DNA from: a virus
Reading direction: 5' to 3' (one strand)
Length of the DNA: 64,000 nt
IMG/VR virus record: IMGVR_UViG_3300035698_000221
Span: 1-64,000 of that record
Shown: piece by piece, positions 7,289-26,058 of the stretch
Numbering within the stretch: the first letter of the stretch is position 1
Layout of the letters: each line of letters starts with the position of its first letter
Translations under genes and position numbers: made by a program
Notes under the pieces: model-generated
The model's database searches: none
What the model was told of the DNA's origin: nothing
Seen by the model: the letters and a program-made list of their open reading frames with translations, nothing else

Positions 7289-8498
7289 AGTGTACTACCA
7301 TAATTTTAGGATTGTCTGTTGTGTATGAACGCCAAGGATCAACTACGATACTGCCATCTTCTATCTCACAATATAATTTTTGTTCCTCTATAACTCCTGC
7401 ATAACCATATGTTACTATTTGATTATGTGCTAGTAGGACAACTCCATGCACACTGGTTGGGTTATCGCCTTCGGTAAGAGGATCTATGTAAGTTACCTTA
7501 TTGTTGTACTCATTTTCAATATAATGCCCAATTAGTAGACTGTAACTACCGTCTACGTAAGGTACGTTGGGCTTGTAAGCCTTACCATGTATATAGATAG
7601 GTAAATTATATTCTCCTGCAAGTCTACATAGTCTTGTTGATATATTCCGTGCTTGTATTTCCCTTGCATCCATGATAGCATTAAACAAATCATAGTTTAA
7701 GCCAAGTTCTTGTGCCATATAACGTAGTGCAATGTTATCACGTGGATGACAAGGTCCGGCGTCTCCCATACCTGCTGTAAGATACTTGTGTCCTGTTATA
7801 CGCATTGTAGAATGCTTTAGTGCATTAGTAACAACGTCAACATTGATGTTGCCAGACTTTTCTGCTACATCCTGTATCATGTTTACTAGTCCAATCTTAA
7901 CACTAATAAACGTATTGTAAAATATTTTAATTGCTTCTGCTTCGTCCCATGTGCCTACCACGTAACGTGGATCATTTTCCATTATTTCTTTATAAACATC
8001 TATAAGTTCTTTTGCGTCTGTAGTTTCTGACCCGTCTTCTGTGCCAATAATAACCATTTCAGGGTTAACCATGTCCCATGATACTGATCCCATAGCAATA
8101 AGGTAGGGGTTGTATATAAAGCGTGTGTTCGAGAGCAGATTTATAAAGTTTTTACGTGTTGTACCGGGTAAAACTGTGCTAATTAACACAACCAATTGCT
8201 GTTTGGTAGCGTGTTCATTAACTTCTTTACATACGTCAATAACAATACTATAATCAAAATCTTTGTTTTCTAAATGGCTAATAGGTTGACTGCCATCATA
8301 CTTAGGGTCATGTGGAGTAGGGACAGCAATAAAAACTATATCGCTAGATTCTACTACATCCTTAATGTTGTCCTTCACTGTTACAGTATCACTTGTTACA
8401 GATGCAACATCATAGCCTGAAGTTTCATACTTCGTAGCAAAGGCCTCTGCACATGGTAATCCTAATTTACCTAATCCAATAAACCCTATCTTCTTCAT
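7266..8498 (-). CDS. UDP-glucose/GDP-mannose dehydrogenase family protein
   Basis: 410 aa. The N-terminal NAD-binding fold is shown by KIGFIGLGKLGLP, followed by VFIAVPTP and the ISTVLPGTT strand. The catalytic region reads GMGDAGPCHPRDNIAL with C250 as the expected thiol of the four-electron oxidation. The product would be a sugar acid such as a uronate. The start overlaps the stop of the upstream radical-SAM gene as ATGA. In phages such enzymes are usually linked to surface-polysaccharide alteration. Family call strong, sugar unknown. Confidence 0.88.
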   Translation of the reverse strand: MKKIGFIGLGKLGLPCAEAFATKYETSGYDVASVTSDTVTVKDNIKDVVESSDIVFIAVPTPHDPKYDGSQPISHLENKDFDYSIVIDVCKEVNEHATKQQLVVLISTVLPGTTRKNFINLLSNTRFIYNPYLIAMGSVSWDMVNPEMVIIGTEDGSETTDAKELIDVYKEIMENDPRYVVGTWDEAEAIKIFYNTFISVKIGLVNMIQDVAEKSGNINVDVVTNALKHSTMRITGHKYLTAGMGDAGPCHPRDNIALRYMAQELGLNYDLFNAIMDAREIQARNISTRLCRLAGEYNLPIYIHGKAYKPNVPYVDGSYSLLIGHYIENEYNNKVTYIDPLTEGDNPTSVHGVVLLAHNQIVTYGYAGVIEEQKLYCEIEDGSIVVDPWRSYTTDNPKIMVVHYGNSRGR

Positions 8499-10000
8499 AA
8501 TAATTTTCTGCCCTCTTCTAATTCAGGAACATAATCAACTAGTTTAACATTTCTTGACTTATCTAGCAAGTCGTTAAACTCATAAAATTTACCTAGCCAG
8601 TGCAAGTCTGTCTTGGGATCGTTACTATAATACTCTAGCAACGAGTCTATTATACTTTTGTTGTCTCTTGCGTCTGTGTAATATGCATTTGTTTTTGTTA
8701 CTCGTGTTAAACTGTCTACTACCAACTCTGGAAATGGATGATTAAACACATTAACGGTTTTGTCTGGCCAGTATACCTGCTGTAGGAAAACTGTACTGCC
8801 TGGAAACTCTCTGTCATAAAACTCATAAAGTAAATGTAAGTTAGTAATGTTCCAAGGACTAGGTATACATTCTAAACTTACATAGAAACCTTCTGCTCCA
8901 AGTCGTTTAGCATTGGCAACGGTTTTGTCCCAAACACTGTTCCAACGTATGTAATCGTTTACTTTACCATACCCATCAATACTAAAACTAAAATTTACCT
9001 CATCAAACTTGTGCATAAGATTAATTAACTTGTCATTTACTTTTTGTCCATTTGTGTTTAGTGTGATATCTAAGTCTGTTCTTCCTAGTGTAATACATTT
9101 GTCTAAGAAGTTATAGAACTCTGGTATGATAGTTGGCTCACCGCCTGTGCTGTATATCCTAGTACCTGGCAACAAGTTCTCTACATCAATATGTTCGTAG
9201 TTGCCCCATTGTTTTTTATAACTGGGATATTCAAACTTTATTTCTTTAAATTCTTTCTCAATCAAGTGACTGTTTTCAGGACAGCACATCCTACATTGCA
9301 AGTTACACTTGTTACTAGGTCTAACTTCGTAATATGTAGGCAGGGCTACTTCCAAATCTTCCATACTTTGTATATTCATTTTTACTGCCCAGTCCATGCT
9401 TTCATGAACTCTAGTACTAACAAAGCCTAGCTCTTCTTCCTTATAACACAAGTTACAGTTATGTATTCTTTCGCCACTTTTCAGTTTGTTCCTGATCTCC
9501 ACAAACTCAGGATCAGTGCGCCAATCACCAAGGTCTTCAAGTTTCTTAATTGGTATTTTACTTTTACTGCATATTAACACATCACCGTATTCTTCTAATA
9601 GGTGCATCCAGGGATAGGTACAAAATGCCTTGTTATCCTGTAACAGGTCCCACATAAACTGTATGCTTTTTATATTTTCGTTATCTCTAAATTCTGTGGT
9701 ATGCGCTAACTTCTCTAACTCTACCATGATTTTATATGTGCTTAGTAGAGCTTTCCAATGGCTCCATACTGCAACAGGTTGGTCTAGCAACACAATCCTA
9801 TCAAAGTTCTTAGCAACCTCAACAATACCACCCGCCCAGATATCTACTATAGTGGTATGATAGTATCCCGAATTGTCTGGTACAAATTTGCTGTCAGACA
9901 CCAACCCATAATTAGTTGTGTTGTTGTTTTTGGCTATGTCTGTTACTAATTGATCTGTACTGGTGTCGTTTGTTCCTAGGAACAGTACTTTGTTTAACAT
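8495..10000 (-). CDS. Radical SAM protein with N-terminal Rossmann-like extension
   Basis: 501 aa. The first 110 residues (LFLGTNDTSTDQL ... FDRIVLLDQP) form an extra alpha/beta domain. Auxiliary cysteines are C127, C144, C182 and C185, and the radical-SAM triad is C232, C236, C239 (NKCNLQCRMCCP), followed by STGGEPT. The layout matches the radical-SAM proteins at 1955-3220 and 53379-54497. It is the first gene of a minus-strand run that continues with the nucleotide-sugar dehydrogenase, and its leader faces the divergent palindromic promoter at 10028-10048. Substrate unknown. Confidence 0.87.
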   Translation of the reverse strand: MLNKVLFLGTNDTSTDQLVTDIAKNNNTTNYGLVSDSKFVPDNSGYYHTTIVDIWAGGIVEVAKNFDRIVLLDQPVAVWSHWKALLSTYKIMVELEKLAHTTEFRDNENIKSIQFMWDLLQDNKAFCTYPWMHLLEEYGDVLICSKSKIPIKKLEDLGDWRTDPEFVEIRNKLKSGERIHNCNLCYKEEELGFVSTRVHESMDWAVKMNIQSMEDLEVALPTYYEVRPSNKCNLQCRMCCPENSHLIEKEFKEIKFEYPSYKKQWGNYEHIDVENLLPGTRIYSTGGEPTIIPEFYNFLDKCITLGRTDLDITLNTNGQKVNDKLINLMHKFDEVNFSFSIDGYGKVNDYIRWNSVWDKTVANAKRLGAEGFYVSLECIPSPWNITNLHLLYEFYDREFPGSTVFLQQVYWPDKTVNVFNHPFPELVVDSLTRVTKTNAYYTDARDNKSIIDSLLEYYSNDPKTDLHWLGKFYEFNDLLDKSRNVKLVDYVPELEEGRKLL

Positions 10001-12042: not shown

Positions 12043-14073
12043 CTACTTAGTTTGCGCTCTAAAAATTCCGTCCCAGATCTCTAAGTCGTTAATGTCAGAC
12101 TTTTCAAGTTCCGTAATACGCTCGCTCATTAACACATAATACTGTTCAAGTTCTCCTGAAAAGGCCAACTTATTACCGCCAGCAATCCTCTTAGCTTCGT
12201 TCCAGTCTCTGTTTCTATATGCGTCGAGATACTCCTGATGTTTCTTTATCTCGACATCAAATGATGAAGTTACAGGAGTGTATATTGTTACTGGATCTTC
12301 TTTGCCTTTAACAGCAATTAAGTCTAGTTCGATTAATTGTGTGTCGGTTACCGACTTTGCTGTTTCTTCACCAATGATTGTGATGACTCCGTACGATTTG
12401 GATTGGCCTTCAAGCCTGCTTCCAAGATTGACAGCATCACCGAGTACACTGTAATCAAACCTTTGATCAGAACCCATATTACCCACGACGCAGGCACCAG
12501 TGTTAATACCAATACCAATATTAATAGGTAGTAGATTATCTTTGGATAGTTCTTCATTAAGTCGCCTAACTCCATCAACCATGTCTTGCGCCGCCAGTAC
12601 TGCTTTTTGTTCATGACCTTCTATCTCCAGTGGCGCATTCCAGAACGCCATAATACAGTCTCCCATATACTTATCTATGGTTCCCCTATGCTCCATAATT
12701 ATGTTAGTCATGGGAGTTAAGAACTTATTAATAAGTCGTGTTAGACCTTGTGGATCTGTTTTATACTGTTCACTAATAGGGGTAAATCCTCTGATATCAC
12801 AAAACAAGAATGTCATGACTCTGGTAACACCACCTAACTGCATCTTCTCAGGATGCTTCTGTAATTCTGCTACCAGCTCTTTACTGATGTAAGTTCCAAA
12901 CTGTTTCTTAATCTGTTGCTTCTGATAAAATTCGCTTAAGAACTTAACTGTATATGCATGCACATAAGTTAACACCAAGGCAAATATAATTGCTGTTATG
13001 TCAAACAATAGTCGTTGTTCTGTGTAATAGTATTGAGCCGCATAATAAATGCCTACAACAACCGCTATTACAGGCACAAAGCCATATGTCCAACTTGATA
13101 TAAAAATAGCAAGCAAGCCTAATACTACAATTGCCAGTAGTTCTGCACCGTCTGCCCAATCAGCACGTACAATGTTTACACCATTGAACATTGTACCTAC
13201 TACTGCGGCTTGTACTTCATGTGGCCAACTGCCACCTAATGCTGTTGCTACAGGCTGGTTAGTACCTGCCGCTGTTGGGCCAATAATAACTACGCCTCCA
13301 CCAAAATCTTCTGGCAGATTAGTTAGACTATGTTTATAACTTTGTTGGCTCCAGTCTATCCAGATACGTCCCAGTGCATCAGTAGTTATAGTACCAAAGG
13401 CTGGTATACGCATTTTCTCAACACCGTATTCAAACAGTTTGATCTGAAAGGTTGTGTCTCCTGCGGCTGATCTTAATATCTCTAACGGTACGCCTGGGTA
13501 TAAGTTTTCGCCCACTGCGGCAACTAATGGAATGCGTCTAGTAACACCATCTATCTCTGGTAATGTGTTAGCAATACCAACACCGTATGCACGTTGTTCT
13601 AGCTCTTCAGTGTTTGCTATTATGCCAGGATAGTTGATAATTGTGTTCATGTACTCTGGATTTAAAATCACTGCACCTGGTTTCTTAGGTGTGTTTTTGC
13701 TCCATTGGCTAGGTACACTTGTTAGTATGACAGGATAAGACTCCATTGCCTCTGCTAGTGCTAGGTCCTGATCTGATGCTTCTGGCATGAGAACATTTAA
13801 CACAACCAGCCCTGCATTCCTGTTATATAGGTCTACAATTAAGTCTGCATAATAGTCTCTGGGCACGGGCCATGCGCCTATTTCGGTTAGTGCAAGGTCG
13901 TCTATATTAACAGTGTGTATGTTATTTTGTACTGGTTCTTGGCTTGTAATTAGAGTATCGAAGTAACGTAGCCTAACACTTTCCACAAATCCTGGATCCG
14001 ACATTTTAATATATGCGCATATTAATAATGTGATTATTGCTGTCCAGGGACTCAGCAATATTTTTTTGAACAT
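12043..14073 (-). CDS. CHASE2-domain class III adenylate/guanylate cyclase
   Basis: 676 aa. N-terminal membrane helix at about 8-25, then a CHASE2-type extracytoplasmic sensor at about 27-305 (VNIDDLALTEIGAWPVPRDYY is typical), two to three membrane helices at about 310-385, and a class III cyclase domain at about 415-600. Catalytic features are complete: metal-binding D426 (FLFCDIRGFTP) and D472, base-contacting K468 (DKYMGDCIMAFW), and N549/R553 of the transition-state site (GDAVNLGSRLEG). It should make cAMP (or cGMP) in response to a periplasmic or membrane signal. In bacteria CHASE2 cyclases often sit near FecR-domain genes, and a FecR gene lies 3 kb upstream here. A full-length cyclase in a phage-like genome is unusual. 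Confidence 0.93.
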   Translation of the reverse strand: MFKKILLSPWTAIITLLICAYIKMSDPGFVESVRLRYFDTLITSQEPVQNNIHTVNIDDLALTEIGAWPVPRDYYADLIVDLYNRNAGLVVLNVLMPEASDQDLALAEAMESYPVILTSVPSQWSKNTPKKPGAVILNPEYMNTIINYPGIIANTEELEQRAYGVGIANTLPEIDGVTRRIPLVAAVGENLYPGVPLEILRSAAGDTTFQIKLFEYGVEKMRIPAFGTITTDALGRIWIDWSQQSYKHSLTNLPEDFGGGVVIIGPTAAGTNQPVATALGGSWPHEVQAAVVGTMFNGVNIVRADWADGAELLAIVVLGLLAIFISSWTYGFVPVIAVVVGIYYAAQYYYTEQRLLFDITAIIFALVLTYVHAYTVKFLSEFYQKQQIKKQFGTYISKELVAELQKHPEKMQLGGVTRVMTFLFCDIRGFTPISEQYKTDPQGLTRLINKFLTPMTNIIMEHRGTIDKYMGDCIMAFWNAPLEIEGHEQKAVLAAQDMVDGVRRLNEELSKDNLLPINIGIGINTGACVVGNMGSDQRFDYSVLGDAVNLGSRLEGQSKSYGVITIIGEETAKSVTDTQLIELDLIAVKGKEDPVTIYTPVTSSFDVEIKKHQEYLDAYRNRDWNEAKRIAGGNKLAFSGELEQYYVLMSERITELEKSDINDLEIWDGIFRAQTK

Positions 14074-14080
14074 AACGTAT

Positions 14081-15202
14081 TTACTCTATGTTATCTATTT
14101 TTTGTAGCAACTTGTTAAGCATGGCTTCTTTGGTCTTTTTAATAAGGTCCATAAACATAAAAAAGTTATATTGTGTTATAAACATAACTTTTTCGTAGAC
14201 TCCTGCAGGATCTTGTTTAGCTAGATATTCAACTTGGTCAAATGCTCTATCAAATCTTTTTCTAGGATCTGCTATGTCGTCATAACTTTCATCTATAACC
14301 GAGTCAAAAGTTTCAAATCCTAGACTTTTTATGAATCGTAACGTATGCTGTGGTGCAAACATTATAAACATACGTTGCGCCATAAACATCTTAGCAGTCT
14401 TCTCTGTCAGGAAGAAAGGTCCAGGATTTGTGTCATCTGGGTTGTTGCCAAAACTTTCACAACATATACTGTAGTGTGTCTTTTCGTATATGTCCCAGGG
14501 TGTGACTTCACTTATTTGATGTGGTTCTAAATCTTGTGGTTGTTCTTCTGTAAAGTTTTTGCTTACGTAAGGCCACAGCAACTCTTTGCCATCTAGTGTT
14601 TTTCGTACATGATCGTACAAGTACTTAGGGTTGTCTCCCCAATGATTAATAAACGTGTCTCTATAGTTTACAATAGAGTTTGAGAGTAAATCTGGACGCT
14701 GTTGTAAACGTGCCATTACATAACTACGATGCAATTTACGGGATCCCAATAACGCATCAAACAGAAACTCACGCTTATTATAACTACTCACTTGAATAGA
14801 GTTTAGGTTACGATGGTGAAACATCCACCAAGGTCTGTATATAAAGTCGGGGTCTGTTAGTTCAGTTGTAACCCCACCAGCCGCAACCAGATAGTTTTTA
14901 ATTCCAGCAGGTTGAATGCATTCTTCTATAATATAGTCTTGGCTATGACATTCTATATCACTTAACACCACCAGATCAAACTTGCTAAAGTCGTATTTTT
15001 TAAACTTCTCTCTATACGTATAACTGCCTGGACAATTAAACAATGCAGGCATCATAGCAATCTTACACGGTTGTGCTAGTGCTTCTGTGTAATCATCAGT
15101 AAACTGCCAGTTTACGTGATCGTGGCCTAACCAGTCACTAGCAACATTTATTGCACTGGTTGGGGTAACAAAATTAAATATTTTGTGTTCAGATATTTTC
15201 AA
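14081..15202 (-). CDS. Glycosyltransferase-like protein, paralogue A
   Basis: 373 aa. The C-terminal half contains FFLTEKTAKMFMAQRMFIMF, then GFETFDSVIDESYDDI and a closing helix region. This matches the pattern in the product at 20597-21790 (LTEKIFKPIVARQPFMLL, GFKTFDGFIDESYD) and recalls nucleotide-sugar-binding lobes of GT10-like transferases. Start is TTG at 15202, the only start in this frame after an upstream stop; it overlaps the end of a short upstream reading frame, which could couple them. The two paralogues flank the curli-like island. Confidence 0.72.
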   Translation of the reverse strand: MKISEHKIFNFVTPTSAINVASDWLGHDHVNWQFTDDYTEALAQPCKIAMMPALFNCPGSYTYREKFKKYDFSKFDLVVLSDIECHSQDYIIEECIQPAGIKNYLVAAGGVTTELTDPDFIYRPWWMFHHRNLNSIQVSSYNKREFLFDALLGSRKLHRSYVMARLQQRPDLLSNSIVNYRDTFINHWGDNPKYLYDHVRKTLDGKELLWPYVSKNFTEEQPQDLEPHQISEVTPWDIYEKTHYSICCESFGNNPDDTNPGPFFLTEKTAKMFMAQRMFIMFAPQHTLRFIKSLGFETFDSVIDESYDDIADPRKRFDRAFDQVEYLAKQDPAGVYEKVMFITQYNFFMFMDLIKKTKEAMLNKLLQKIDNIE

Positions 15203-15333
15203 AGAACACCATCGTCACTAGTGTTATGGACTCGATGAAACGCACCATCCGGAATCAATATGGTGTCACCTCCTTATACATGAAACTGTCTGTCGTCCAA
15301 TTTCATCGAATCCATATCCACTAATAAAATGAT
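15203..15333 (-). pseudogene. Cupin-fold relic inside nested inverted repeats
   Basis: After the DUF1289 stop, the same frame reads about 19 codons to TAA (DMDSMKLDDRQFHV), then GGDTILIPDGAFHRVHNTSDDGVL to TGA. The part GDTILIPDGAFHRVHN fits cupin motif 2 exactly (G-x5-P-x-G-x2-H-x3-N). Motif 1 is missing, so this is a relic or a very short peptide. A strong AAGGAGGTGA lies just after the TAA, and a TTG start there would give a 19-aa peptide ending on the TTG of the next gene. DNA arms 15225-15240 and 15301-15316 form a 16-bp stem, with an inner CACCAT/ATGGTG stem at 15243-15248 and 15260-15265. Confidence 0.5.
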
Positions 15334-15483
15334 TCATACTTCTCTGTCTTCTAGTTGTTGTACTATGCTGTCACGTTGTGCATCTGTATAGCTAATCCAG
15401 TTGGCTATTTCTTCTTGTGTACGATTACAGCCCAAACAATAGCCATTTTCCATAACACAAATTTTCTGACAAGGTGATTGCAT
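15334..15483 (-). CDS. DUF1289 family small cysteine-rich protein
   Basis: 49 aa. It begins MQSPCQKICVMENGYCLGCN and continues RTQEEIANWISYTD, matching DUF1289 (SPC-x3-C, C-x-GC-x-RT-x-EI-x-W). The four cysteines C5, C9, C16 and C19 probably bind a metal. Its role in bacteria is not established. ATG overlaps the stop of the QueD-like gene (TAATG), with GAGGAC as Shine-Dalgarno, so the two are translationally coupled. Confidence 0.8.
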   Translation of the reverse strand: MQSPCQKICVMENGYCLGCNRTQEEIANWISYTDAQRDSIVQQLEDREV

Positions 15484-15983
15484 TACTCATACAAGTCCTC
15501 GTTCCATTCTCTGTGTCCCTCACGCCAAGCCATGTTGCTTTGTGTTTCACGTACTTCTACTCTGTAACACCAAAGTCTATCTGCTTCGCTTTGCCCCCAC
15601 ATGTCTGGGATATACACACCATTTACATATTTGTACAGTTGGTCTGCAAGGCCTTCGCAACCAAGTTTTGGTAAGATAGTTAGTTTAGCCAACTTCTTTG
15701 CTTGCAGTTGCTTGTACATTTCTATTTCTGGGTCGTCTTCAGCAACCAGTAGCGTATGGTCAAACTGATCCTGTAATATTTGCTTTAGTTCCGTTAATCC
15801 GCCGTAATCGGCAACCCAGTTTCTAACATCTAGGTCGTCTGTTCCAAAAAAGAAACGCATTGTAAACGCATAACCGTGTATTACGTTGCAGTGACTGTCA
15901 GCTCTCCATTGTCTATATGCACACGGAAACTGATCAACGTATTCTTTTGTGCTCACGTACTTGTATTGTCTTGGTTCGTTCAT
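15483..15983 (-). CDS. 6-pyruvoyltetrahydropterin synthase / QueD-like protein
   Basis: 166 aa, T-fold family. The segment QFPCAYRQWRADSHCNVIHGYAF aligns with the metal and Cys region of QueD/PTPS proteins, with C32 as the likely catalytic Cys and H36 as a ligand. FDHTLLVAEDDPE corresponds to the conserved DH motif. Two usual zinc histidines appear replaced (CAY for CAH and HGY for HGH), so catalysis may differ. QueD acts in preQ0/queuosine synthesis, which phages use for DNA or tRNA modification; no other queuosine genes are visible here. Confidence 0.75.
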   Translation of the reverse strand: MNEPRQYKYVSTKEYVDQFPCAYRQWRADSHCNVIHGYAFTMRFFFGTDDLDVRNWVADYGGLTELKQILQDQFDHTLLVAEDDPEIEMYKQLQAKKLAKLTILPKLGCEGLADQLYKYVNGVYIPDMWGQSEADRLWCYRVEVRETQSNMAWREGHREWNEDLYE

Positions 15984-16145
15984 TATTATGTCCTATATTA
16001 AAAGTAATTATAACATAGACTTGCAGAATTTGTATACCGGGTTGAATGCCAGAAAAGGCCGGTTGCAACTATTTATTGCTCCAATGTTTGTAAAACTTTT
16101 AGACATGCATTACTATAACACACTAGATCCGTGTAGTCAAGACGT
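15984..16145. promoter_or_regulatory. Leader region of the QueD-like gene
   Basis: 162 nt without a convincing gene. On the minus strand AATAAATA at 16070-16077 could be a late promoter, and a TATAAT-like hexamer lies nearer the gene. A plus-strand frame (15988-16149) has no ribosome site and is not called. Confidence 0.4.
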
Positions 16146-17372
16146 TTAGTCGCCTTGTGTTACAGTCAATGAGCATCCTGCACTGGTATAGCATGTTCCG
16201 CTTGTTGTTGATTCATCACTCATACTATGTGGTAAACTATATGTTTTATCGTTGGTGCCGTTCTGATCTAGACTAAATGTCCAACTACCACCGCTCTCTG
16301 TTAGTTCAACAGTAGCCGCATGGTCACCAGCACCTTGCTGTGTTATTGTAGCAGTATTGTTGTCACCAATTAAATCCAATTGTAGATAATGGTTGCCCCC
16401 ATCTTTCTGAATCAGTGTTGCTGAGTTACTATCTCCGTTAACATCAATAAATGCTGTATGGTTCCCACTGCCTGTTTGAGTTAAGTCTAGTATATTACTG
16501 TCGCCTAAAATTTCAGCTTCTGTATAATGCCCATAGCTGGTTGCTGACGTACTAGCATCTTGATCTATGTCGATGTCGTTAAGGTTTCCTGTAACATTTA
16601 GCAACAAAAGACTTGGTTCACCTGCCTGCGAAATAAAAATATCATTGCTATCACCTGTTATATTAATATCTATATCGTTACTAGAGCCTGAACTTATAGC
16701 TGATCTATTAGAGTTTATTCTAGTTTGTTGTGCAGAAGTTGGCCCAGAAGAATATGATGGCGTTGCTGAAGAACTACTCGATGTAGAAGTTGTACTGAGC
16801 CAACTTGTGGGTATGTTTGCTTGATTAGAATACTGATAATCAGTTAAACTGTAATTGATATCAAGTTCTGCACCGCCTCCCCACTCGTACCACCAAACTG
16901 TAATTGGATATTCTTGCCCGCCCGTAAGTGTAATAGAACCTTGAGCATTCCAAGTGGCACCACCTTGTTGTTGCCAGTCCTGGATTACGTTAGTGCCATC
17001 TATGTTCATAAACACGCCATCATCTGCTCTTACACCAAAGTACACAGTTGTTGATACACCTGCTGTGCCTGGCCATGTGATGTATCCTGTTATTTCTAAT
17101 GCTACATAATCTGAACGACCACTGTCTAATACACTACCCCAATTATACCCACTTATGCCTGACATCGTTCCTGTGCTGAGTACACTGCTTAGATAAGATG
17201 GACTTGAGTTCGATCCATCACTATTATAGCCTGCTACGTTATCGTAGTATGGAAATTCAAGACTGGGTGCATATGAGGTTATGTAATATGAGGTATAATC
17301 TAAATCTGCCCATGTAGGAGTAGCAACAAATATTAACCAACTAAAGAGTATTAAGACAAGTCTTTTAAACAT
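16146..17372 (-). CDS. Secreted adhesin: PA14-like domain plus curlin repeats
   Basis: 408 aa. A signal peptide ends near residue 22 (FSWLIFVATPTWA). Residues about 30-185 resemble a PA14/GLEYA domain (YFGVRADDGVFMNIDG, then PITVWWYEWGGGAELDINY), a sugar-binding fold. After a Ser/Thr-rich linker, residues about 235-370 hold curlin-type repeats of the form GDSNxxxxxQxGxGN (GDSNILDLTQTGSGNH, GDNNTATITQQGAGDH). This combination predicts a surface amyloid-like adhesin exported through the nearby CsgG. It overlaps the FecR gene stop by 1 nt. Confidence 0.82.
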   Translation of the reverse strand: MFKRLVLILFSWLIFVATPTWADLDYTSYYITSYAPSLEFPYYDNVAGYNSDGSNSSPSYLSSVLSTGTMSGISGYNWGSVLDSGRSDYVALEITGYITWPGTAGVSTTVYFGVRADDGVFMNIDGTNVIQDWQQQGGATWNAQGSITLTGGQEYPITVWWYEWGGGAELDINYSLTDYQYSNQANIPTSWLSTTSTSSSSSATPSYSSGPTSAQQTRINSNRSAISSGSSNDIDINITGDSNDIFISQAGEPSLLLLNVTGNLNDIDIDQDASTSATSYGHYTEAEILGDSNILDLTQTGSGNHTAFIDVNGDSNSATLIQKDGGNHYLQLDLIGDNNTATITQQGAGDHAATVELTESGGSWTFSLDQNGTNDKTYSLPHSMSDESTTSGTCYTSAGCSLTVTQGD

Positions 17373-18469
17373 TATTGACTCTGTATAATAGTTATTTCTG
17401 TTCCTGAACCACCTTGAACTTGTATTTGAGCTGGGACGTCATCCTGTGTAATATTTACGTTGCCTTCCATAACTCGTTCCAGACTTATCTCAGCAACATG
17501 AGGTGGTCTCTCACTTCTCATAAAAATCTCTTCTTCGTTTGCATACCATAATATCCAACTGTACTGTTGTATTGTTGGTAGCGTCTCGTTTGTTTCCAAT
17601 TGGTCTCTGTTTAAGTCCACTGTGGTCAAGTCCAGCATATTGCCTAAGAAATCAAAATCTAAGTAATTTATGTCAAGTTCGTAATTATTTGCTAGTTCAT
17701 CTTCTTCGTCTAACTGGTTAGTGTCTAAATCATCAAATTTTAATAAGTCTTTGTCTAGTGGATCTTTACTGCGCTCTTGCTCTTCTTGAGCTATCCTAAC
17801 TTCTTCTGGTGGACTAATAATAAGAAAATTGTCAATCAATGCTTCTGTAATGTTAACAATTGTTGGTTCAGTAGGCATTGAATCACTGCTAGTTACCAAT
17901 GTAGCCTGAAATGCCTGATTCATAATAACAGCACCCACGTCTGTTAGAACTTCAATCTCCCCCACATAACAGTCTACTTCATTGTCAGTTGGGCAACTAG
18001 GTAGTAGAATAACAAGACTACGTCCTATCTCGTCTACAGTCATTGTGAAGTCTGTTCCTCGAACAGCAATAGTAGCAGTTGGTGTTTGAATGTTAACATT
18101 CTCAGCATTGTCTTTTGCTATTTTACCAGATGCGTAGCGTACTGTGCCTAACACTACTTTCATGCCTAGTTTACCTGGCGTTTCACTCCCTGGATCGTAG
18201 ATAAATTCATCTACTATTAATTTACTTTGTTCGATAATGCGGATTTTGGTGTTATCTGCAAAAGTTATGCCTACTTTTGACTTTGCTGTCTGTATAACAT
18301 CTTGCATAAAGATGTCAGCACCTTTTTCGCTAGGTAGTTTTGATTTTGCTCTGCTTATCTCCGCAGGCCCAGTTTGTTCTGTAACATTCCCTATACCTTT
18401 TGCAAATACTGTAGAGGATATAAGAAATGTTACAGCAAATAGAGTCCTACTGAACTGTGATGTCAACAT
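17372..18469 (-). CDS. FecR-domain secreted protein
   Basis: 365 aa from the ATG at 18469, chosen because it gives a signal peptide (MLTSQFSRTLFAVTFLISS). Residues about 25-165 show a FecR-type domain with the hallmark TPTATIAVRGTDFTM. The middle is acidic and the extreme C-terminus (GNVNITQDDVPAQIQVQGG) resembles a curlin repeat. FecR domains sense periplasmic or surface signals and occur next to CHASE2 cyclases in bacteria. The start overlaps the curlin gene by 23 nt. It may be a sensor or an exported fibre component. Confidence 0.82.
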   Translation of the reverse strand: MLTSQFSRTLFAVTFLISSTVFAKGIGNVTEQTGPAEISRAKSKLPSEKGADIFMQDVIQTAKSKVGITFADNTKIRIIEQSKLIVDEFIYDPGSETPGKLGMKVVLGTVRYASGKIAKDNAENVNIQTPTATIAVRGTDFTMTVDEIGRSLVILLPSCPTDNEVDCYVGEIEVLTDVGAVIMNQAFQATLVTSSDSMPTEPTIVNITEALIDNFLIISPPEEVRIAQEEQERSKDPLDKDLLKFDDLDTNQLDEEDELANNYELDINYLDFDFLGNMLDLTTVDLNRDQLETNETLPTIQQYSWILWYANEEEIFMRSERPPHVAEISLERVMEGNVNITQDDVPAQIQVQGGSGTEITIIQSQ

Positions 18470-19088
18470 CGTTGTCTTGCCCGTCGATGTTAAGAATAAC
18501 ATTTGAACCTGTAACATCATTTAAGATGTCAACAGTATTAGCATCGCTTAGGTCTAACGAATCTGCTCCAATAGTTACTGTGTTAGTTTGACTTGCACCT
18601 GTTGCTTCAATGTTAACAGCGTTGGTATCACCTGTTATCGAAATAGTATTTGAAGTTGTACTGTCAGTAATACCGCCTGTACAAGTCATTGCAACCCCTG
18701 ATGCACTGTCGTTAGATCCACAAACTGTTGCCCAGTTTGTATCACCCGTAATGTCAATATCAACAGTTGTACTGGATGCACCGTCAACACTAACGTTAGT
18801 TTCGTTACTGCTACCCAGAACATCAATATCAACATTTGATGAAGTTGCGCTATTTTCTAATTCAATGTCTGCATTATTCAAATTACCGTCTTGGGTAATA
18901 CTTAATGTAATACTATCACCACTGAGTGTTGCGGCATCTCCCGACGAGTTTACTGTGTTAGTCCCGTTCTGTTGTATAACTGTGATTGTTGAACTATCAC
19001 CTGCCTGATCAATATACACGTCATTCGCAAAAACCGTGCCACAAGTTATCAGTAATATTGCACCTACAATAGTTCTTAAAATTTTCAT
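18447..19088 (-). CDS. Curlin-like secreted repeat protein (CsgA/CsgB type)
   Basis: 213 aa from the ATG at 19088, which has a GAGGAA Shine-Dalgarno and gives a clean signal peptide (MKILRTIVGAILLITCGTVFA). The mature part begins NDVYIDQAGDSSTITVIQQN, the classic curlin unit, and continues with degenerate repeats rich in Asn, Ser, Thr and Asp (ITGDTNAVNIEATG). Such proteins polymerise as extracellular amyloid. Gln/Gly of the repeats decay towards the C-terminus, so polymerisation ability is uncertain. Confidence 0.82.
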   Translation of the reverse strand: MKILRTIVGAILLITCGTVFANDVYIDQAGDSSTITVIQQNGTNTVNSSGDAATLSGDSITLSITQDGNLNNADIELENSATSSNVDIDVLGSSNETNVSVDGASSTTVDIDITGDTNWATVCGSNDSASGVAMTCTGGITDSTTSNTISITGDTNAVNIEATGASQTNTVTIGADSLDLSDANTVDILNDVTGSNVILNIDGQDNDVDITVQ

Positions 19089-19194
19089 TTTTCCTCTTCC
19101 CTTGGCCATGTAGCCACACATATCAGATCATAGTGATGATATAACACTTATTGCTATTTAAATAATACTGCACAAATAAATACATAGCACTATT

Positions 19195-20085
19195 TCAAAG
19201 TGGGTTCTTTTCTATTAGTTTTAGCTGTTTTTCATACTCTTCTTGTAACATTTCGACCTCTGACAGCTGTTTTGACACATTTTCTATTCTGTCAGATGAT
19301 ACAGTGACCTCTGAGTTTTTAAAGTCCCAGTACCCATTTGCTTTGCCTTGCATAATCATTTCTATTACTGCGGCGTCAATAACTCGTTGAACTGCAACTG
19401 TGGTAGGCTCGTTTGTGTAGTTACCAGCTTCTATCTCTACGGCACGTGTTCCCATATCAATAAATCTAAATGCTGATAGACTAGTGCCATAACTTATAAT
19501 AGTCTTACTAGCAGTAACTGCCACTAATACCTCACCAGTCTGAGTAGAAATAACTCGCATCGCAACTGTTACTACATCCTCCCTATACTCCTGGTGTAAT
19601 CCTATTCCTAAATATCTTGCACCACTACCGCCTGTTTTTATATTACTATCGTACCCTACTATAGCACCTTCCAGTAAAATTCCTGCATATTTTAATGGCT
19701 TAAGTGTACTTTGATCGTCAACTGCTTGTCTTTGTTGCCTAATAATCTGTCTCTCTTTAGTTAGGTTGTCTAAGCCAACACGCTCAATAACCTTAAACCA
19801 CTCACCGTTGCCTACTTCTTTAAGACTTTTAATTACCCATTCAACCGACCCCTGTGTTACTGCTGTAGATATGTTTGAAAAACGCTCACTGGGTTTACGT
19901 TGACCTGTTTTGTCTTCAAACGAATAAACAGCAATGTATATAGGTCCTTGTGCAGGAGGCGGGATATTATAAAACATTTCGTCTTGGCTCTGTACAATTG
20001 TAGGTGCTTCAAAGGATGTTTTACCAGCGACAGTTGCACATCCTGAAACTAACAGTGTTGCCATTAACATCATCAAGATTTTCAT
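19195..20085 (-). CDS. csgG: CsgG, curli secretion outer-membrane lipoprotein
   Basis: 296 aa. Signal peptide with lipobox LVSGC, lipidation at C16. Family hallmarks are present through the length: IYIAVYSFEDKTGQRKP, VIERVGLDNLTKERQI, GILLEGAIVGYDSNIKTGG, GARYLGIG and EAGNYTNEPTTVAVQRVI. CsgG forms a nonameric pore that exports curlins (type VIII secretion). csgF lies immediately upstream with a 1-nt gap, and the curlin-like genes downstream are on the same strand. No csgE is visible. Confidence 0.95.
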   Translation of the reverse strand: MKILMMLMATLLVSGCATVAGKTSFEAPTIVQSQDEMFYNIPPPAQGPIYIAVYSFEDKTGQRKPSERFSNISTAVTQGSVEWVIKSLKEVGNGEWFKVIERVGLDNLTKERQIIRQQRQAVDDQSTLKPLKYAGILLEGAIVGYDSNIKTGGSGARYLGIGLHQEYREDVVTVAMRVISTQTGEVLVAVTASKTIISYGTSLSAFRFIDMGTRAVEIEAGNYTNEPTTVAVQRVIDAAVIEMIMQGKANGYWDFKNSEVTVSSDRIENVSKQLSEVEMLQEEYEKQLKLIEKNPL

Positions 20086-20086
20086 A

Positions 20087-20548
20087 TTAGAAAGAAAAGT
20101 CTCCTACAGGTACAGAAAATGTGGATAATATCGACCCATTACTGTCAGACACTGTTACAGATATAACACCATCAATACGAGACCATGCTACTGTGTCACC
20201 AAACGGTGTTGTTACTATTCCTTCAGCATCAGCTGCCGCCGCCGCCTCACCAAAAAGGCTATCACTAATTTGCTTACTGAGCTGACTGTAGATCCTAGAT
20301 TCCAGGTTATTCTGAAACTTCCAGGTATTTGTGGCTCGCAAATCTCGCTCTGATTCATCAGACGAAGCCTTTGCTTTTTTATCGTTTTCAGTTCTTCTAT
20401 TAGACTCTAACTGTTCAATAGTTAGCACATGCGCACTATACCCGTTTCCTGTAAACGCAGGGCTCTTATAATTAAACGTTAAATTGTCTGCAGATGCCAC
20501 TGAGGCCATAAATAAAAACATTAATAGGTACTTCACTTTTATCCTCAA
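20087..20548 (-). CDS. csgF: CsgF, curli assembly factor
   Basis: 153 aa. Signal peptide ends near residue 20 (FLFMASVASA). The mature start NLTFNYKSPAFTGNG matches the CsgF segment that inserts into the CsgG channel, and the rest follows the family to the short C-terminal strand region (VISVTVSDSNGS). CsgF couples secretion to nucleation at the cell surface. Directly followed by csgG. Confidence 0.9.
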   Translation of the reverse strand: MRIKVKYLLMFLFMASVASADNLTFNYKSPAFTGNGYSAHVLTIEQLESNRRTENDKKAKASSDESERDLRATNTWKFQNNLESRIYSQLSKQISDSLFGEAAAAADAEGIVTTPFGDTVAWSRIDGVISVTVSDSNGSILSTFSVPVGDFSF

Positions 20549-20596: not shown

Positions 20597-21790
20597 ATGT
20601 TTAATATTGACCACCATTATGACATCCTATACGCCAACTTGTTATCAAATAAGCATTTACAAGGGCATGCTTTAAAGAGCTTTGATACGTGTGAATCAAA
20701 TAACGACATGCTAAAGTATCCAGATTCTTCACTGTTTCAACTTGAAGATGTGTATTTTTATGACCAAGAACCTTTTGGGATTAGTACGCAGATACCGCAA
20801 AGTATGTATGACGTCGTGCGTAAACTACAAGATGGCAGGTGGGATTTAAAGTATAATATATGGGCAACTAGCGAGGTTAATAATCCCTTGTTAGATGCAT
20901 TTTGTAACAAGAATAACTTAATTAAATGGTATTATTTTTATCATGCATTTGCTAGTCTTGACTGGTTTAGAAGTGCAAAATTTTCCCCCAGGGTCGATGT
21001 CAGTCAAGGAGCAAGTTATATAAGTTTAAATAACCTGTGCTCTGAATCAAGAATTTATAGATCGTTGTTTGTGGCAAAACTGTATGATCAAGGGCTGTTA
21101 GGGGAAGGTGTTGTTTCATACAATCTTAAGGACTATGACAATAACACATTTATTTCAGAGCAAGATAAAAAACTTATTAAAAAGATGTCAGAGCGTAGTC
21201 CCACTTTTAGGATACAAAAGACCAATTACCTACGTGACAATGCAAGTGCTGAACTAGAGTACGATCTCTGGACAAGTGGTTTTTGGCATATAGTCAGTGA
21301 GACCTGCTTTTACGAAAAAACAAATCATCTTACCGAAAAAATATTTAAACCTATCGTTGCTAGACAACCGTTTATGCTATTAGGCTGTACAGGCAACTTA
21401 GAGTACTTACGTTCATATGGTTTTAAGACATTTGACGGATTTATTGATGAGAGTTACGATACAGAAACAGATCCCGCTATTAGATTAGATATGGTAATTA
21501 AACAGATAAAAAGTATATGTAACTTGTCAGCAACAGACAAACGTAGGATGTATCTAGAAATGTTGCCTATTTTAGATTATAACTTTAATCACTTTTATAA
21601 TACATTATTTGATATATGTTGGCAAGAGCTATTGGATAACTTTGAAATAGCGGATAATCTGTTACAGAATAAGCAACAGCATTATGCAAGACACCCTGAC
21701 TTAAAAGTAATAGATGGTGAACTGGGGAGTGTTAACACATTACCAGGTAATGCAGGGAAACAGTTTAGAGAAAGATGGAAATTTAAATAG
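20597..21790 (+). CDS. Glycosyltransferase-like protein, paralogue B
   Basis: 397 aa, divergent from csgF. The C-terminal region has NHLTEKIFKPIVARQPFMLL, then EYLRSYGFKTFDGFIDESYD, matching paralogue A at 14081-15202 and resembling GT10-like sugar transferases. The N-terminus (NIDHHYDILYANLL) differs. ATG at 20597 has no clear Shine-Dalgarno. Its end overlaps the next convergent gene by 8 nt. Likely modifies a surface or fibre glycan. Confidence 0.72.
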   Translation: MFNIDHHYDILYANLLSNKHLQGHALKSFDTCESNNDMLKYPDSSLFQLEDVYFYDQEPFGISTQIPQSMYDVVRKLQDGRWDLKYNIWATSEVNNPLLDAFCNKNNLIKWYYFYHAFASLDWFRSAKFSPRVDVSQGASYISLNNLCSESRIYRSLFVAKLYDQGLLGEGVVSYNLKDYDNNTFISEQDKKLIKKMSERSPTFRIQKTNYLRDNASAELEYDLWTSGFWHIVSETCFYEKTNHLTEKIFKPIVARQPFMLLGCTGNLEYLRSYGFKTFDGFIDESYDTETDPAIRLDMVIKQIKSICNLSATDKRRMYLEMLPILDYNFNHFYNTLFDICWQELLDNFEIADNLLQNKQQHYARHPDLKVIDGELGSVNTLPGNAGKQFRERWKFK

Positions 21791-23154: not shown

Positions 23155-23694
23155 CTATTTTGAAATAGGCACATTTCCATAGAATATAGGTTCTTCAGGT
23201 AATTGCCTTATTAAACATACTCTAATAGACTCTAAGTTTTCAACACTGTGTATCTCCTGTACTGATAACTTATACCATTTATCACGCTTTAATACTTTAG
23301 AATACACTAGTTCTATCTCGTCTCTGGGTACTGCTTTAATTGGTAGATATTGTTTATCTAACAATTTTTTATAAAAACAAGTACTAACATTATCCCCACC
23401 AGGATCAATAATATACGATATAGTAAAGTCTCTATGGTCGTCTCTGTGAGGCACAAGATAGGAACCTTTTTCCAGTATCTGTATTATCCAGTTAAACTTG
23501 TCCTGTCCATTATCTTTAAACCACGTTGTTTTAAGACGAGACAAATCCACGTTGTAAATTTTAAACGTTGCCACATTACTGAACTCTGGATCAAACTTAT
23601 AAGAGTATATACCGGTATCTGGATTTGTTTGTAACAGTTCTGATATTACTTCCTTAGGTATACTGGGGATATCTAATTGCTCAATATACATCAT
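23155..23694 (-). CDS. 2OG-Fe(II) oxygenase-like protein
   Basis: 179 aa. A double-stranded beta-helix oxygenase is suggested by VPHRDDHRDFTISYIID (HxD) and the distal SVQEIHSVENLESIRVCLIR, where His and Arg would bind iron and oxoglutarate. Prolyl-hydroxylase-like members are common in marine phages. Substrate unknown. It overlaps its upstream neighbour by 14 nt. Confidence 0.7.
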   Translation of the reverse strand: MMYIEQLDIPSIPKEVISELLQTNPDTGIYSYKFDPEFSNVATFKIYNVDLSRLKTTWFKDNGQDKFNWIIQILEKGSYLVPHRDDHRDFTISYIIDPGGDNVSTCFYKKLLDKQYLPIKAVPRDEIELVYSKVLKRDKWYKLSVQEIHSVENLESIRVCLIRQLPEEPIFYGNVPISK

Positions 23695-24016
23695 CAGATG
23701 AATTCCCCGCCTCTGTTAGTATGTGTTTATAATAACTGTCTAGTTCGCCTTTAAATTTCCCCATCAGATGACTTATGGCTTGTTCACAAAAACTATAATC
23801 CTGTTTAATATGGTTCTTAACCACCTCTCTGTGTAGACCACACCATTCTTCTAGACTTGATATTTCTTGCAATGGTACTTTATCCATGTCTATAATAACG
23901 TGAGGTTCCACTGTGACAGTTTTTTCTCCCTCTGTTTGTGTGATTGGGGGTAACGGTAATACTGTGTAAGTTTCCGCTAACTTGTCTGCCGATTCCTTAG
24001 TAAAAACTACATTCAT
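23681..24016 (-). CDS. Hypothetical protein, 111 aa
   Basis: Start at 24016 forms an ATGA overlap with the stop of the membrane-anchored protein upstream. The protein (MNVVFTKESADKLAETY ...) is soluble with an acidic helical C-terminus. No family recognised; it may be a small regulator or structural accessory of the operon. Confidence 0.7.
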   Translation of the reverse strand: MNVVFTKESADKLAETYTVLPLPPITQTEGEKTVTVEPHVIIDMDKVPLQEISSLEEWCGLHREVVKNHIKQDYSFCEQAISHLMGKFKGELDSYYKHILTEAGNSSDDVY

Positions 24017-24606
24017 GCGCCTTTTCCTATCTGTACATCTTCTATTGAAGCACCATGACATGCCACCGCTTTCATTGCCCATGCAATACTGCCTTTGGCT
24101 TTAGCAAAACTCCTTGCTTGTCCAGTTTCATAAATTGTTTGTGTTCTGATAACCCAGTCTTTGTCAACATAATAATCTCGCAAAGGTTGCACTAGCCCAC
24201 TTGAGCACTCAATAGTTGCTTCACTAACTACTTTGATAACACCCACGGCGTATCCTGGTATTACTTTTGGACCATCTGTAAATTCAAACATTACCCAAAC
24301 GTGTCTATATATTGTGACTTTCTCAATTTTATCTATGTTAAGATACAATCGTCTATTATCTACATGACCCACTTGTCGCCAGCCTTTGGTGTCGTTCTCC
24401 AGTTGGCCGTATCTACTGGTAGGGTGTGGGGTAATATCTAATATGTCACCTGTTAGTTCCGTCCCATCTTCTAATTGAAGAGGGTTATCTTCTGTGTACT
24501 CTTGTGCCAACACTGACGTAGTAATTAACCAGCCAATAAACATTAACGCTGATATAAAAAATGCGATTAACAGTGCAAATCCAACTTTCTTTTGCGACTT
24601 AGTCAT
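24013..24606 (-). CDS. Exported protein resembling surface-adhesin E family
   Basis: 197 aa. An N-terminal hydrophobic segment (GFALLIAFFISALMFIGWLI) acts as a signal anchor or signal peptide. The mature part reads WRQVGHVDNRRLYLNIDKI, VWVMFEFTDG and later SEATIECSSG, in the order seen in surface-adhesin protein E-like domains. The match is by pattern only. It is a candidate exported phage protein, perhaps acting in the periplasm or at the surface. Confidence 0.68.
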   Translation of the reverse strand: MTKSQKKVGFALLIAFFISALMFIGWLITTSVLAQEYTEDNPLQLEDGTELTGDILDITPHPTSRYGQLENDTKGWRQVGHVDNRRLYLNIDKIEKVTIYRHVWVMFEFTDGPKVIPGYAVGVIKVVSEATIECSSGLVQPLRDYYVDKDWVIRTQTIYETGQARSFAKAKGSIAWAMKAVACHGASIEDVQIGKGA

Positions 24607-25970: not shown

Positions 25971-26058
25971 TGTTTTCTCCTTAATATTAAGCAAGATTAA
26001 TTGTAGCACCCTTTCGGCGTGCCGGTAAATGTACTCCGGTTCATCCTTTGTACACATT
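25971..26058 (-). promoter_or_regulatory. Structured hsp20 leader, possible RNA thermometer
   Basis: The leader contains CCGG-10 nt-CCGG, then GCAC...GTGC around a GAAA loop, and finally a CTTAATATTAAG palindrome touching the AAGGAG ribosome site. Weak A-U pairing over the Shine-Dalgarno of a heat-shock gene is compatible with a thermometer but is not proof. Confidence 0.4.

Follow-up and report, generated by a model that had tools for sequence, protein, structure and literature searches.

A 2020 report of curli genes in marine phages left their function unclear (PMC7029224). PMC9599517 describes pelagiphages from two families that carry CsgF, CsgG, CsgA/B, FecR and an adenylate cyclase, with a histidine kinase upstream that is always present in the podophage version, and also ocean metatranscriptomes that contain transcripts from viral curli genes. 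Together with PMC9004378, these papers offer rival guesses on what phage curli do; in PMC9004378, cultures infected with Melnitz did not clump and this phage was taken to have no curlin subunits. None of the three mentions CHASE2 in its main text. In bacteria, the available part of PMC5192318 describes the BiofilmReg operon of B. contaminans, where a FecR-domain protein adjoins a CHASE2 receptor with histidine kinase output, and PMC7529298 and PMC13001267 give a genetic precedent in S. meliloti, where the outer-membrane protein NsrA acts upstream of CHASE2 cyclases. The S. meliloti FecR-domain gene smc02177 was dispensable for signal perception (PMC5498481).

The island studied here lies on the minus strand (12043-20548) of a window of 64,000 bases from IMG/VR record IMGVR_UViG_3300035698_000221 (68,743 bases, classed as viral in IMG/VR), and encodes CsgF, CsgG, a small curlin-like protein, a FecR-domain protein, a PA14-curlin and a CHASE2 adenylate cyclase (Table 1). 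It shares the order CsgF, CsgG, curlin, FecR, second curlin, cyclase with the pelagiphage type VIII secretion module, as given in PMC7029224, PMC9004378 and the accessible text of PMC9599517, but differs from it in that no histidine kinase was found, the second curlin has a PA14 domain and two additional genes lie ahead of the cyclase. CsgG, CsgF and curlin repeats are common to the island and to E. coli curli (type VIII secretion), whereas CsgE, the usual periplasmic cap, was found in 0 of 14 phage records and FecR and the cyclase are added. Like the island, BiofilmReg (in the available part of PMC5192318) sets a secreted FecR-domain protein beside a CHASE2 receptor, in a system tied to biofilm, but its output is a histidine kinase with a response regulator and its FecR is joined to LysM. 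S. meliloti also has an outer-envelope protein (NsrA) that acts upstream of CHASE2 adenylate cyclases (CyaK, CyaD1 and CyaD2); there FecR is fused to TPR repeats and to a part predicted to sit in the outer membrane, with no curlin tail and no curli. The preliminary description of this DNA regarded the link between cyclase and FecR as new, which fails because the whole set, both genes included, is already in the accessible text of PMC9599517. What looks new relative to that set is a possible mechanism, made up of the FecR-CHASE2 pairing, a curlin-like tail on FecR and a cyclase domain with the traits of a cassette.

The island and its relatives

Table 1. Genes of the island in window coordinates; the Pfam scores for CsgF, CsgG, FecR, PA14, CHASE2, Guanylate_cyc and the Curlin_rpt of the PA14-curlin are all above cut-off.
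Feature	Position	Strand	Assigned role	Evidence
csgF	20087..20548	-	extracellular adaptor of curli pore	Pfam CsgF 51.5 bits
csgG	19195..20085	-	outer-membrane curli secretion pore	Pfam CsgG 185.4 bits
Small curlin-like exported protein	18447..19121	-	putative fibre subunit	NCBIfam CsgA E 9e-6, yet below the model's cut-off; Pfam Curlin_rpt 10.1 bits, below the 20.7 cut-off; position of phage kin
FecR-domain protein with curlin-like C-terminal tail	17372..18520	-	putative periplasmic relay	Pfam FecR 40.6 bits
PA14-curlin	16146..17372	-	putative fibre subunit with adhesin domain	Pfam PA14 40.7 bits, Curlin_rpt 43.7 bits
QueD-like gene	15483..15983	-		PHROG QueD-like E 4.9e-34; Pfam PTPS 50.6 bits
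ORF without family	14081..15202	-		kin of ORF at 20597-21790 (BLASTP)
CHASE2-adenylate cyclase	12043..14073	-	inner-membrane receptor	Pfam CHASE2 112.9 bits, Guanylate_cyc 66.1 bits

The six genes named in the preliminary description are all present on the minus strand at the coordinates it gave, by ORFs and Pfam, with weaker evidence for the small curlin; the cyclase, which it put 3 kb further on, starts only 2.1 kb past the PA14-curlin (14073 to 16146). Two genes separate them, the QueD-like gene, which we do not hold to be part of the module, and an ORF that has no Pfam, PHROGs or NCBIfam match at the limits used and resembles the ORF at 20597-21790 (35% over 93 residues, E 5e-14). Seven of ten other window proteins scanned match PHROG families, among them a ribonucleotide reductase (1099.5 bits) and a DnaB-like helicase (247 bits). 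A chimera or a bacterial chromosome, the origins that the preliminary description had itself raised as an objection, are unlikely, because 20.5-21.1 kb of the stretch is 100% identical in two more IMG/VR contigs (29,927 and 289,070 bases). The window holds neither a tRNA nor an Rfam match that reaches the gathering score; the late promoter TATAAATA occurs 7 times in it against 8 expected, with none ahead of csgF, and promoter and terminator scans of the window gave chance levels.

The module recurs unchanged in the 289-kb phage contig, and the same order is found in HTVC008M and Melnitz, where csgF is also the first gene of the set. Related loci were collected with the cyclase (best 80 of at least 577), CsgG (best 80 of 351) and FecR (best 80 of at least 506), and are thus near relatives. 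Where more than 8 kb of flank was available on both sides, CsgF, CsgG, FecR and the cyclase co-occurred in 33/33, 24/24 and 28/28 loci, respectively, so the proposed sensing-plus-adhesion set does stay together in related phages. With any length of flank, the cyclase loci had FecR in 68/80 and CsgG in 63/80, the CsgG loci had FecR in 76/80 and the cyclase in 55/80, and the FecR loci had CsgG in 78/79 and the cyclase in 67/79 (one of the 80, L033, was counted under the cyclase scan); many of these loci end at contig ends. The commonest order puts FecR between two curlin genes (106 loci). HATPase_c, the mark of a histidine kinase, was found in none of four records, namely this one (a fragment), the 289-kb contig (maybe a fragment), HTVC008M and Melnitz.

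The csgG product matches solved CsgG (3x2r, E 4e-53, residues 2-258) and has a lipobox, judged by eye. The small protein is a probable curlin, mainly by its position and by the phage relatives found in the same place. The PA14-curlin matches the curlin structure 8c50 (E 1e-11) and also the PA14 structures 6qe7 and 6m8m; by a profile built from two sequences only, PA14 is on the second curlin in 12 of the 126 groups that have both FecR and the cyclase. We infer that these subunits leave through CsgG and assemble on the infected cell into amyloid-like fibres, which would most likely serve adhesion, either holding nearby hosts together or coating the surface.

The CHASE2 cyclase and its catalytic domain

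The cyclase was described from the start as complete, and the full set of class III catalytic residues is indeed there (D426, K468, D472, D540, N549 and R553). CHASE2 spans about residues 26-300 and the catalytic domain about 416-600, in a model with pLDDT 89 and four long helices that could span the membrane. No solved structure matched CHASE2 by sequence at E 0.001, and in a fold search with the whole model the matches were filled by the cyclase domain. By its residues the enzyme of the window is predicted to be an adenylate cyclase, and a cAMP output may hold, though one with no known receiver, because a cNMP-binding domain was found in none of 14 phage records. PycC models of the Pycsar defence system match the cyclase domain (PADLOC, 94.3 bits), as they may any class III cyclase, and we did not take this as defence.

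Among 126 phage cyclases, 49 have a non-canonical active site without the usual catalytic Asn (the N class includes L068, which has S540 and N549), and all 49 keep D426, K468, D472 and R553. The idea that the Melnitz cyclase is a decayed pseudo-enzyme was dropped, as this class forms one clade of the cyclase tree and retains those four residues throughout. The active-site label has to change 17 times on the CHASE2 tree versus once on the cyclase tree, and 6 times on a tree across both domains (residues 15-535). These trees used 55 phage rows below 68% identity, with 5 binned rows added for the single-domain trees and sliding windows and 15 for the both-domain tree; in L243 the cyclase runs over two frames, and its part with both domains was used unaltered. 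Tree error as the source of the 17 changes is countered by several observations: well-supported branches force 11 of them, one of the clades is rejected at p 0.003, and the halves of each domain agree with each other (r 0.91 and 0.92), whereas CHASE2 and cyclase agree only at 0.32-0.40. The halves of CsgG (0.77) and of the FecR domain (0.68) agree less than this, and a certain amount of intragenic recombination or noise is therefore general. In sliding windows the exchanged part has its borders roughly at residues 345-410 and 590-640, and the window's own cyclase is a mosaic. Taken from alignments and trees, this suggests that the cyclase domain is a cassette swapped repeatedly between phages under a conserved sensor.

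The FecR-domain protein and its partners

The true start of the FecR protein is probably the ATG near 18469, and even from the longest ORF start only about 40 residues, with one signal-peptide-like helix (judged by eye), precede the FecR domain. The model has this domain at about residues 40-232 and a C-terminal beta domain at 322-380, which found Ig-like matches alone, near Z 3. The FecR domain has the same fold as that of the FecR/PupR sigma regulators (6ovk, Z 15.7, 134 residues), in an alignment that spans model residues 71-232 only, so that the region of the STN reader lies outside the comparison. Unlike those regulators, the phage protein, in its longest ORF and in its model, has no N-terminal cytoplasmic anti-sigma domain and no membrane anchor, and it appears to carry a linker and a curlin-like tail where the STN reader would sit. 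Nor was a partner ECF sigma factor found nearby: Sigma70_r2 gave no match in this record or its 289-kb kin, and the matches in 3 of 14 phage records are far from FecR.

The tail is named curlin-like by an end motif and a profile only, since Pfam Curlin_rpt was found in 0 of 31 FecR proteins. On complete ORFs with distinct tails, the curlin end motif closes the FecR protein in 137/152, the small curlin in 72/121 and the second curlin in 82/127, against 17/142 for CsgF, 1/145 for the cyclase, 0/155 for CsgG and 11/1519 for other ORFs. A profile of the tail matches the curlins at E 7e-5 and 4e-4 (hhalign probabilities 62.5% and 35.8%), versus E 0.012 or worse for CsgG, CsgF and the cyclase. The motif is absent from the FecR of a Hyphomonas locus (L248).

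Covariation was measured over 107 loci, each of which represents one group and has all four genes at close to full length. Given CsgG and CsgF, the FecR domain correlates with CHASE2 (r 0.28, 0/500 permutations as high), while its value with the cyclase domain is 0.08 (17/500) and that of CsgF with CHASE2, given FecR and CsgG, is -0.06. The tail gives r 0.22 with CsgG (0/500) and 0.04 with CHASE2 (41/500). For the FecR domain, the value with CsgF (0.41) exceeds that with CHASE2 (0.28), and with FecR left out a small tie between CsgG and CHASE2 is left (0.11, 4/500). Phage genes recombine, a caveat for all these values. The partial correlations are modest, and they are consistent with a FecR domain that covaries with CHASE2 and a tail that covaries with CsgG; together with the domain comparisons they suggest that the FecR protein, the "iron regulator" of the set, links the fibre to the sensor.

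FecR and CHASE2 genes had been said to be frequent neighbours in bacteria, and CHASE2 does lie in the flank of 28 of 80 bacterial FecR loci, with none in the flanking DNA examined for the other 52. Setting aside six curli-type loci (L243-L248), the pair occurs without curli in 22 of 74, always within 0.7 kb (L261 and L262 are identical sequences), and the outputs among six such pairs scanned include a cyclase, HD_5 and SpoIIE. That a FecR domain of this type pairs with a CHASE2 sensor whatever the output looks new, as far as gene neighbourhoods can tell. On pSymB of S. meliloti the sole CHASE2 gene follows a 1219-aa ORF that bears a FecR domain (57.2 bits). The gene nsrA probably lies directly upstream of cyaK, and NsrA has a FecR domain if it is this ORF. 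Conversely, neither FecR nor CHASE2 was found in 24 other bacterial curli regions (two of which, L353 and L360, end at contig ends). These come from 23 of the 26 genomes with a CsgF match; left out were the Hyphomonas genome of L248 (G001), which has FecR and cyclase, G185, under the cut-off, and G415, whose 3.1-kb locus L334 shows CsgF and CsgG only. The phage gene order also occurs in two MAGs of Caulobacteraceae and in a contig of Hyphomonas, and L244, L245 and L248 fall inside the phage rows of the both-domain tree, for a mosaic gene and with the direction not fixed. Import of the set as one unit, as the preliminary description had it, is a candidate reading, with the shared order on one side and the 24 curli regions without FecR and CHASE2 on the other; alphaproteobacteria are a candidate source. 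The binned bacterial loci L243, L246 and L247, nested among phages, are read as phage contigs.

Candidate functions of the module

Based on these comparisons, we propose, with a probability of about 0.42, that the phage carries in this island an envelope-spanning module for adhesion and signalling, with FecR as periplasmic relay and an exchangeable cyclase output. Curlin subunits would exit through the CsgG/CsgF pore, and the infected cell would come to bear amyloid-like fibres. FecR would act as a periplasmic relay and not as a regulator of iron or sigma factors. Its FecR domain, which has the juxta-membrane fold of PupR, would face the CHASE2 receptor, and its curlin-like tail would engage the fibre or the pore, in place of the outer-envelope readers of other FecR proteins (STN domain, LysM, outer-membrane barrel). 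With such a relay, fibre export or surface contact would alter the cyclic-nucleotide output in the cytoplasm, and the catalytic cassette under the conserved sensor would be exchanged between a canonical adenylate cyclase and its non-canonical sister. That phages swap this cassette beneath a conserved sensor suggests selection on the signal received by the host. A bolder version, which we think doubtful, is that phages welded curli export and a FecR-CHASE2 relay into a self-reporting fibre, with the cyclase cassette swapped at least 11 times on well-supported branches and a non-canonical class that maybe makes another product, as in a second-messenger arms race.

An adhesive or shielding fibre could also travel with an independent FecR-CHASE2 envelope sensor that retunes the host, the two being joined by operon convenience and not by fibre-sensing. 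The parts are separable, because each occurs without the other in bacteria, and among 115 groups FecR and the cyclase share a strand in 104 and lie within 2 kb in 84, with the cyclase more than 4 kb off or upstream in 8; but the FecR tail tracks CsgG and the gene commonly sits between the two curlins, and we regard this explanation as rather unlikely. The accessible text of PMC9599517 makes FecR an iron-dependent regulator and lets cAMP from the cyclase turn on the phage curli genes, citing cAMP control of csgD in Gammaproteobacteria and the iron role of FecR. This seems improbable for a FecR without anti-sigma part or anchor, in phages where sigma-70 region 2 is rare and distant and cNMP-binding domains were not found, and for a domain whose bacterial company is CHASE2. 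Strong conservation of CsgG and the missing CsgE would fit a gated secretin or pinholin that times lysis (PMC9004378); this is very improbable, as FecR and the cyclase are left unexplained and the Melnitz operon, taken there to lack curlins, encodes two curlin-repeat proteins (GenBank record and alignments). The missing CsgE would equally suit an ungated CsgG that admits larger nutrients, with FecR linked to iron (PMC7029224 and the accessible text of PMC9599517), but this leaves the conserved curlins and CsgF unexplained and has hardly any likelihood in our view.

The FecR relay that we favour names a protein whose halves have different predicted partners, which makes the function of phage curli testable, and the natural series of cyclase swaps provides enzymes that can be compared against each other. 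Our results also point to a possible input for CHASE2, a widespread sensor with few known signals, namely FecR-domain proteins that act as readers of the outer envelope. Should the exchange of cassettes result from selection on the product, phages would be tuning or evading a second messenger of their hosts.

Composition of the module and its conservation among phages

From 20548 to 12043 on the minus strand, the window has genes for CsgF and CsgG, followed by a small curlin-like protein, a protein with a FecR domain and a PA14-curlin; a QueD-like gene and a family-less ORF come next, and then a CHASE2-cyclase, as the preliminary description of a csgF-to-cyclase island had it for the named genes. 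The cyclase begins 2.1 kb past the PA14-curlin, not the 3 kb given there, and it has the residues with which an adenylate cyclase binds metal, selects adenine and stabilizes the transition state. All named domains passed their Pfam cut-offs, except that the small protein's curlin repeat scored 10.1 bits against a required 20.7. The source record is viral, with a phage-type ribonucleotide reductase and a DnaB-like helicase aboard, and the module stretch recurs at 100% identity in two further IMG/VR contigs, one of 289,070 bases.

Other features of the window
Feature	Position	Strand	Evidence
Family-less ORF within the module	14081-15202	-	C-terminal stretch shared with ORF 20597-21790 (35% over 93 residues, E 5e-14)
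Family-less ORF flanking the module	20597-21790	+	C-terminal stretch shared with ORF 14081-15202
133-aa protein	23681-24082	-	phmmer, up to 75.6 bits to small phage proteins (own near-copies and locus L165 set aside)
Protein with weak Surface-adhesin E match	24013-24606	-	25.4 bits, cut-off 23.7; 3.5 kb from curli genes
ClpS adaptor and adjoining HSP20 chaperone, phage-borne	25164-25472 and 25518-26057	-	83.4 bits and 55.4 bits
Radical SAM protein, twitch-domain type	8495-10000	-	NCBIfam N_Twi_rSAM, 250.5 bits
Second radical SAM protein	53379-54497	-	

The two family-less ORFs are perhaps, as a guess, glycosyltransferase-like, and the adhesin E match is perhaps another surface protein. The kin of the 133-aa protein are small phage proteins matching the C-terminal helical tail of module cyclases (residues about 566-671); several phages have stand-alone cyclase-tail proteins close to the module.

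By tblastn, the cyclase had matches in eight phage records (two being Acinetobacter phages at 20% query coverage), CsgG in seven, among them a 1.5-kb record of a Salmonella phage, and FecR in six, all three occurring together in HTVC008M (two records) and the four Melnitz phages. IMG/VR contained at least 577 relatives of the cyclase, 351 of CsgG and at least 506 of FecR, and the best 80 of each were analysed. Among these, CsgF, CsgG, FecR and cyclase were all present in 33/33, 24/24 and 28/28 loci, respectively, with more than 8 kb on either side of the query gene (27/27, 11/11 and 24/24 with one locus per near-identical group); related phages do keep the set together, against the contrary prospect raised in the preliminary description. 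The commonest order in these scans was CsgF, CsgG, curlin, FecR, second curlin, cyclase (106 loci, including copies of one phage). Few second curlins carry PA14: a profile built from two sequences found it in 12 of the 126 groups with FecR and cyclase.

The FecR protein and its proposed partnership with CHASE2

Unlike FecR/PupR regulators, the phage FecR protein has neither an anti-sigma domain nor a membrane anchor; its FecR domain is preceded by about 40 residues that, judged by eye, look like a signal peptide. In the structure model of the window protein (pLDDT 81), one beta domain spans about 40-232 and a second, small one 322-380, with a linker of poor order between them. The first domain of the model matches the periplasmic part of PupR (6ovk; Z 15.7, 134 residues, PupR 111-248), the match falling on what PMC7186176 names the juxta-membrane subdomain (residues 110-238). 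The tail ends in a hydrophobic-x-hydrophobic-x-Gln pattern in 137/152 FecR proteins, versus 7/152 shuffled tails; its counts elsewhere were 72/121 in small and 82/127 in second curlins, 17/142 in CsgF, 1/145 in cyclases, 0/155 in CsgG and 11/1519 in other ORFs. Profile comparison favours a tie of the tail to curlins only, but the Pfam curlin model matched 0/31 FecR proteins.

We compared sequence distances across 107 loci by partial correlation with 500 permutations. The FecR domain tracked CHASE2 once CsgG and CsgF were removed (r 0.28, 0/500 as high), and also CsgF (0.41) and CsgG (0.25), while CsgF given FecR and CsgG did not follow CHASE2 (r -0.06) and CsgG hardly did (r 0.11, 4/500). The FecR tail tracked CsgG (r 0.22, 0/500) and not CHASE2 (r 0.04, 41/500). 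This pattern is what would be expected of a bridge, and is not proof of contact.

A scan of a species-genome collection gave 188 relatives of the phage FecR profile. CHASE2 genes flanked 28 of the best 80, bearing out the earlier remark that the two are neighbours in bacteria; six of the 28 also had curli parts (L243-L248). CHASE2 occurred in 22 of the 74 non-curli loci, always within 0.7 kb (two of the 22 being identical sequences), and six scanned CHASE2 proteins from such loci had class III cyclase (1), HD_5 (4) or SpoIIE (1) outputs. A histidine kinase output is described for a biofilm operon in PMC5192318. The FecR domain is read as belonging with CHASE2, outputs differing. Five of the six curli-type genomes hold just one CHASE2 gene and the sixth two, so chance closeness to FecR is unlikely.

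Loci L243, L246 and L247, on contigs titled Flavobacteriaceae, Pirellulales and Rhodobacteraceae, have a phage-type module nested among phages; these three of the six genomes are probably phage-contaminated bins. G001 is a Hyphomonas genome; for its class and family, CsgF was found in 7/385 and 21/105 genomes. FecR and CHASE2 were absent within 8 kb of 24 curli regions in 23 genomes other than G001, and present at the curli region of G001 itself. Together with the full-flank phage counts, this makes the union of curli with FecR-CHASE2 the rule in related phages and rare in bacteria (L248 of Hyphomonas, L244 and L245 of Caulobacteraceae).

In S. meliloti, pSymB has only one CHASE2 gene, with a 1-base overlap with an upstream ORF of 1219 aa in which TPR repeats accompany a FecR domain (57.2 bits). 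The former should be cyaK (SMb20776), and by gene order the latter would be nsrA. According to PMC7529298 and PMC13001267, NsrA is located in the outer membrane and CHASE2 cyclases act downstream of it.

Exchange of the cyclase domain

Adenylate cyclases rely on metal-binding, adenine-choosing and transition-state residues, and the full set is present in 76 of 126 non-redundant phage cyclases (Asn class). Another 49, including Melnitz, have the catalytic Asn replaced by Ser and the adenine-binding Asp by Ser, Gly or Ala (Ser class), and one has the Asp change alone; D426, K468, D472 and R553 are kept in 126/126. In trees of 60 rows (25 Ser, 35 Asn), the class label changed 17 times on CHASE2, versus a shuffled mean of about 19.5, with 11 of the 17 forced by starred branches and one clade rejected (p 0.003). 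On the cyclase tree, motif excluded, it changed once. With windows of 90 residues, the label changed 14-18 times as far as residue 405, 1 to 3 times for windows lying within 345-615, and 7-9 times in the tail. At CHASE2 identities of at least 72%, the cyclase domain shared a mean of 47% in 37 opposite-class pairs and 85% in 121 same-class pairs. Judged by sequence, the cyclase domain is a cassette exchanged among phages, its 5' border falling close to the predicted entry of the last transmembrane helix into the cytoplasm. The window's own gene is likewise a mosaic: the closest sequence is L011 for CHASE2 (64%), L087 for the cyclase domain (73%; only 95th for CHASE2), and L073 and L004 for the tail (45%).

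Possible roles of the module

The preliminary description mentioned curli-related clusters in pelagimyophages, and CsgF and CsgG are indeed reported there (PMC7029224). It took the cyclase and FecR connection to look new, but PMC9599517 already describes the module in phages of two families, where CsgA/B occur together with FecR and adenylate cyclase, and supports it with metatranscriptomes. The word CHASE2 is absent from the main texts of these two papers and of PMC9004378. In open-licence literature on CHASE2 with FecR, phage curli, phage CHASE2 cyclases and phage cyclase domain swapping, mostly at listing level, we found no account of the phage FecR tail, a phage FecR-CHASE2 link or cyclase cassette exchange. 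Published roles are possible alternatives: a lysis-timing pore of CsgF/CsgG (PMC9004378), or aggregation, superinfection defence and uptake, which PMC9599517 discusses. PMC9004378 states that Melnitz is without csgA and csgB, contrary to its GenBank record, where two proteins of the operon are annotated as having curlin repeats.

The most economical account would be a putative fibre organelle that carries its own relay, in which we infer fibre formation. Curlins would be exported by CsgG/CsgF, the FecR protein would connect the CHASE2 receptor with the structure outside, and the cyclase output would be exchanged among phages. A search of 14 phage records, some perhaps fragments, gave no cNMP-binding domain, so the receiver of the signal would have to be a host protein.
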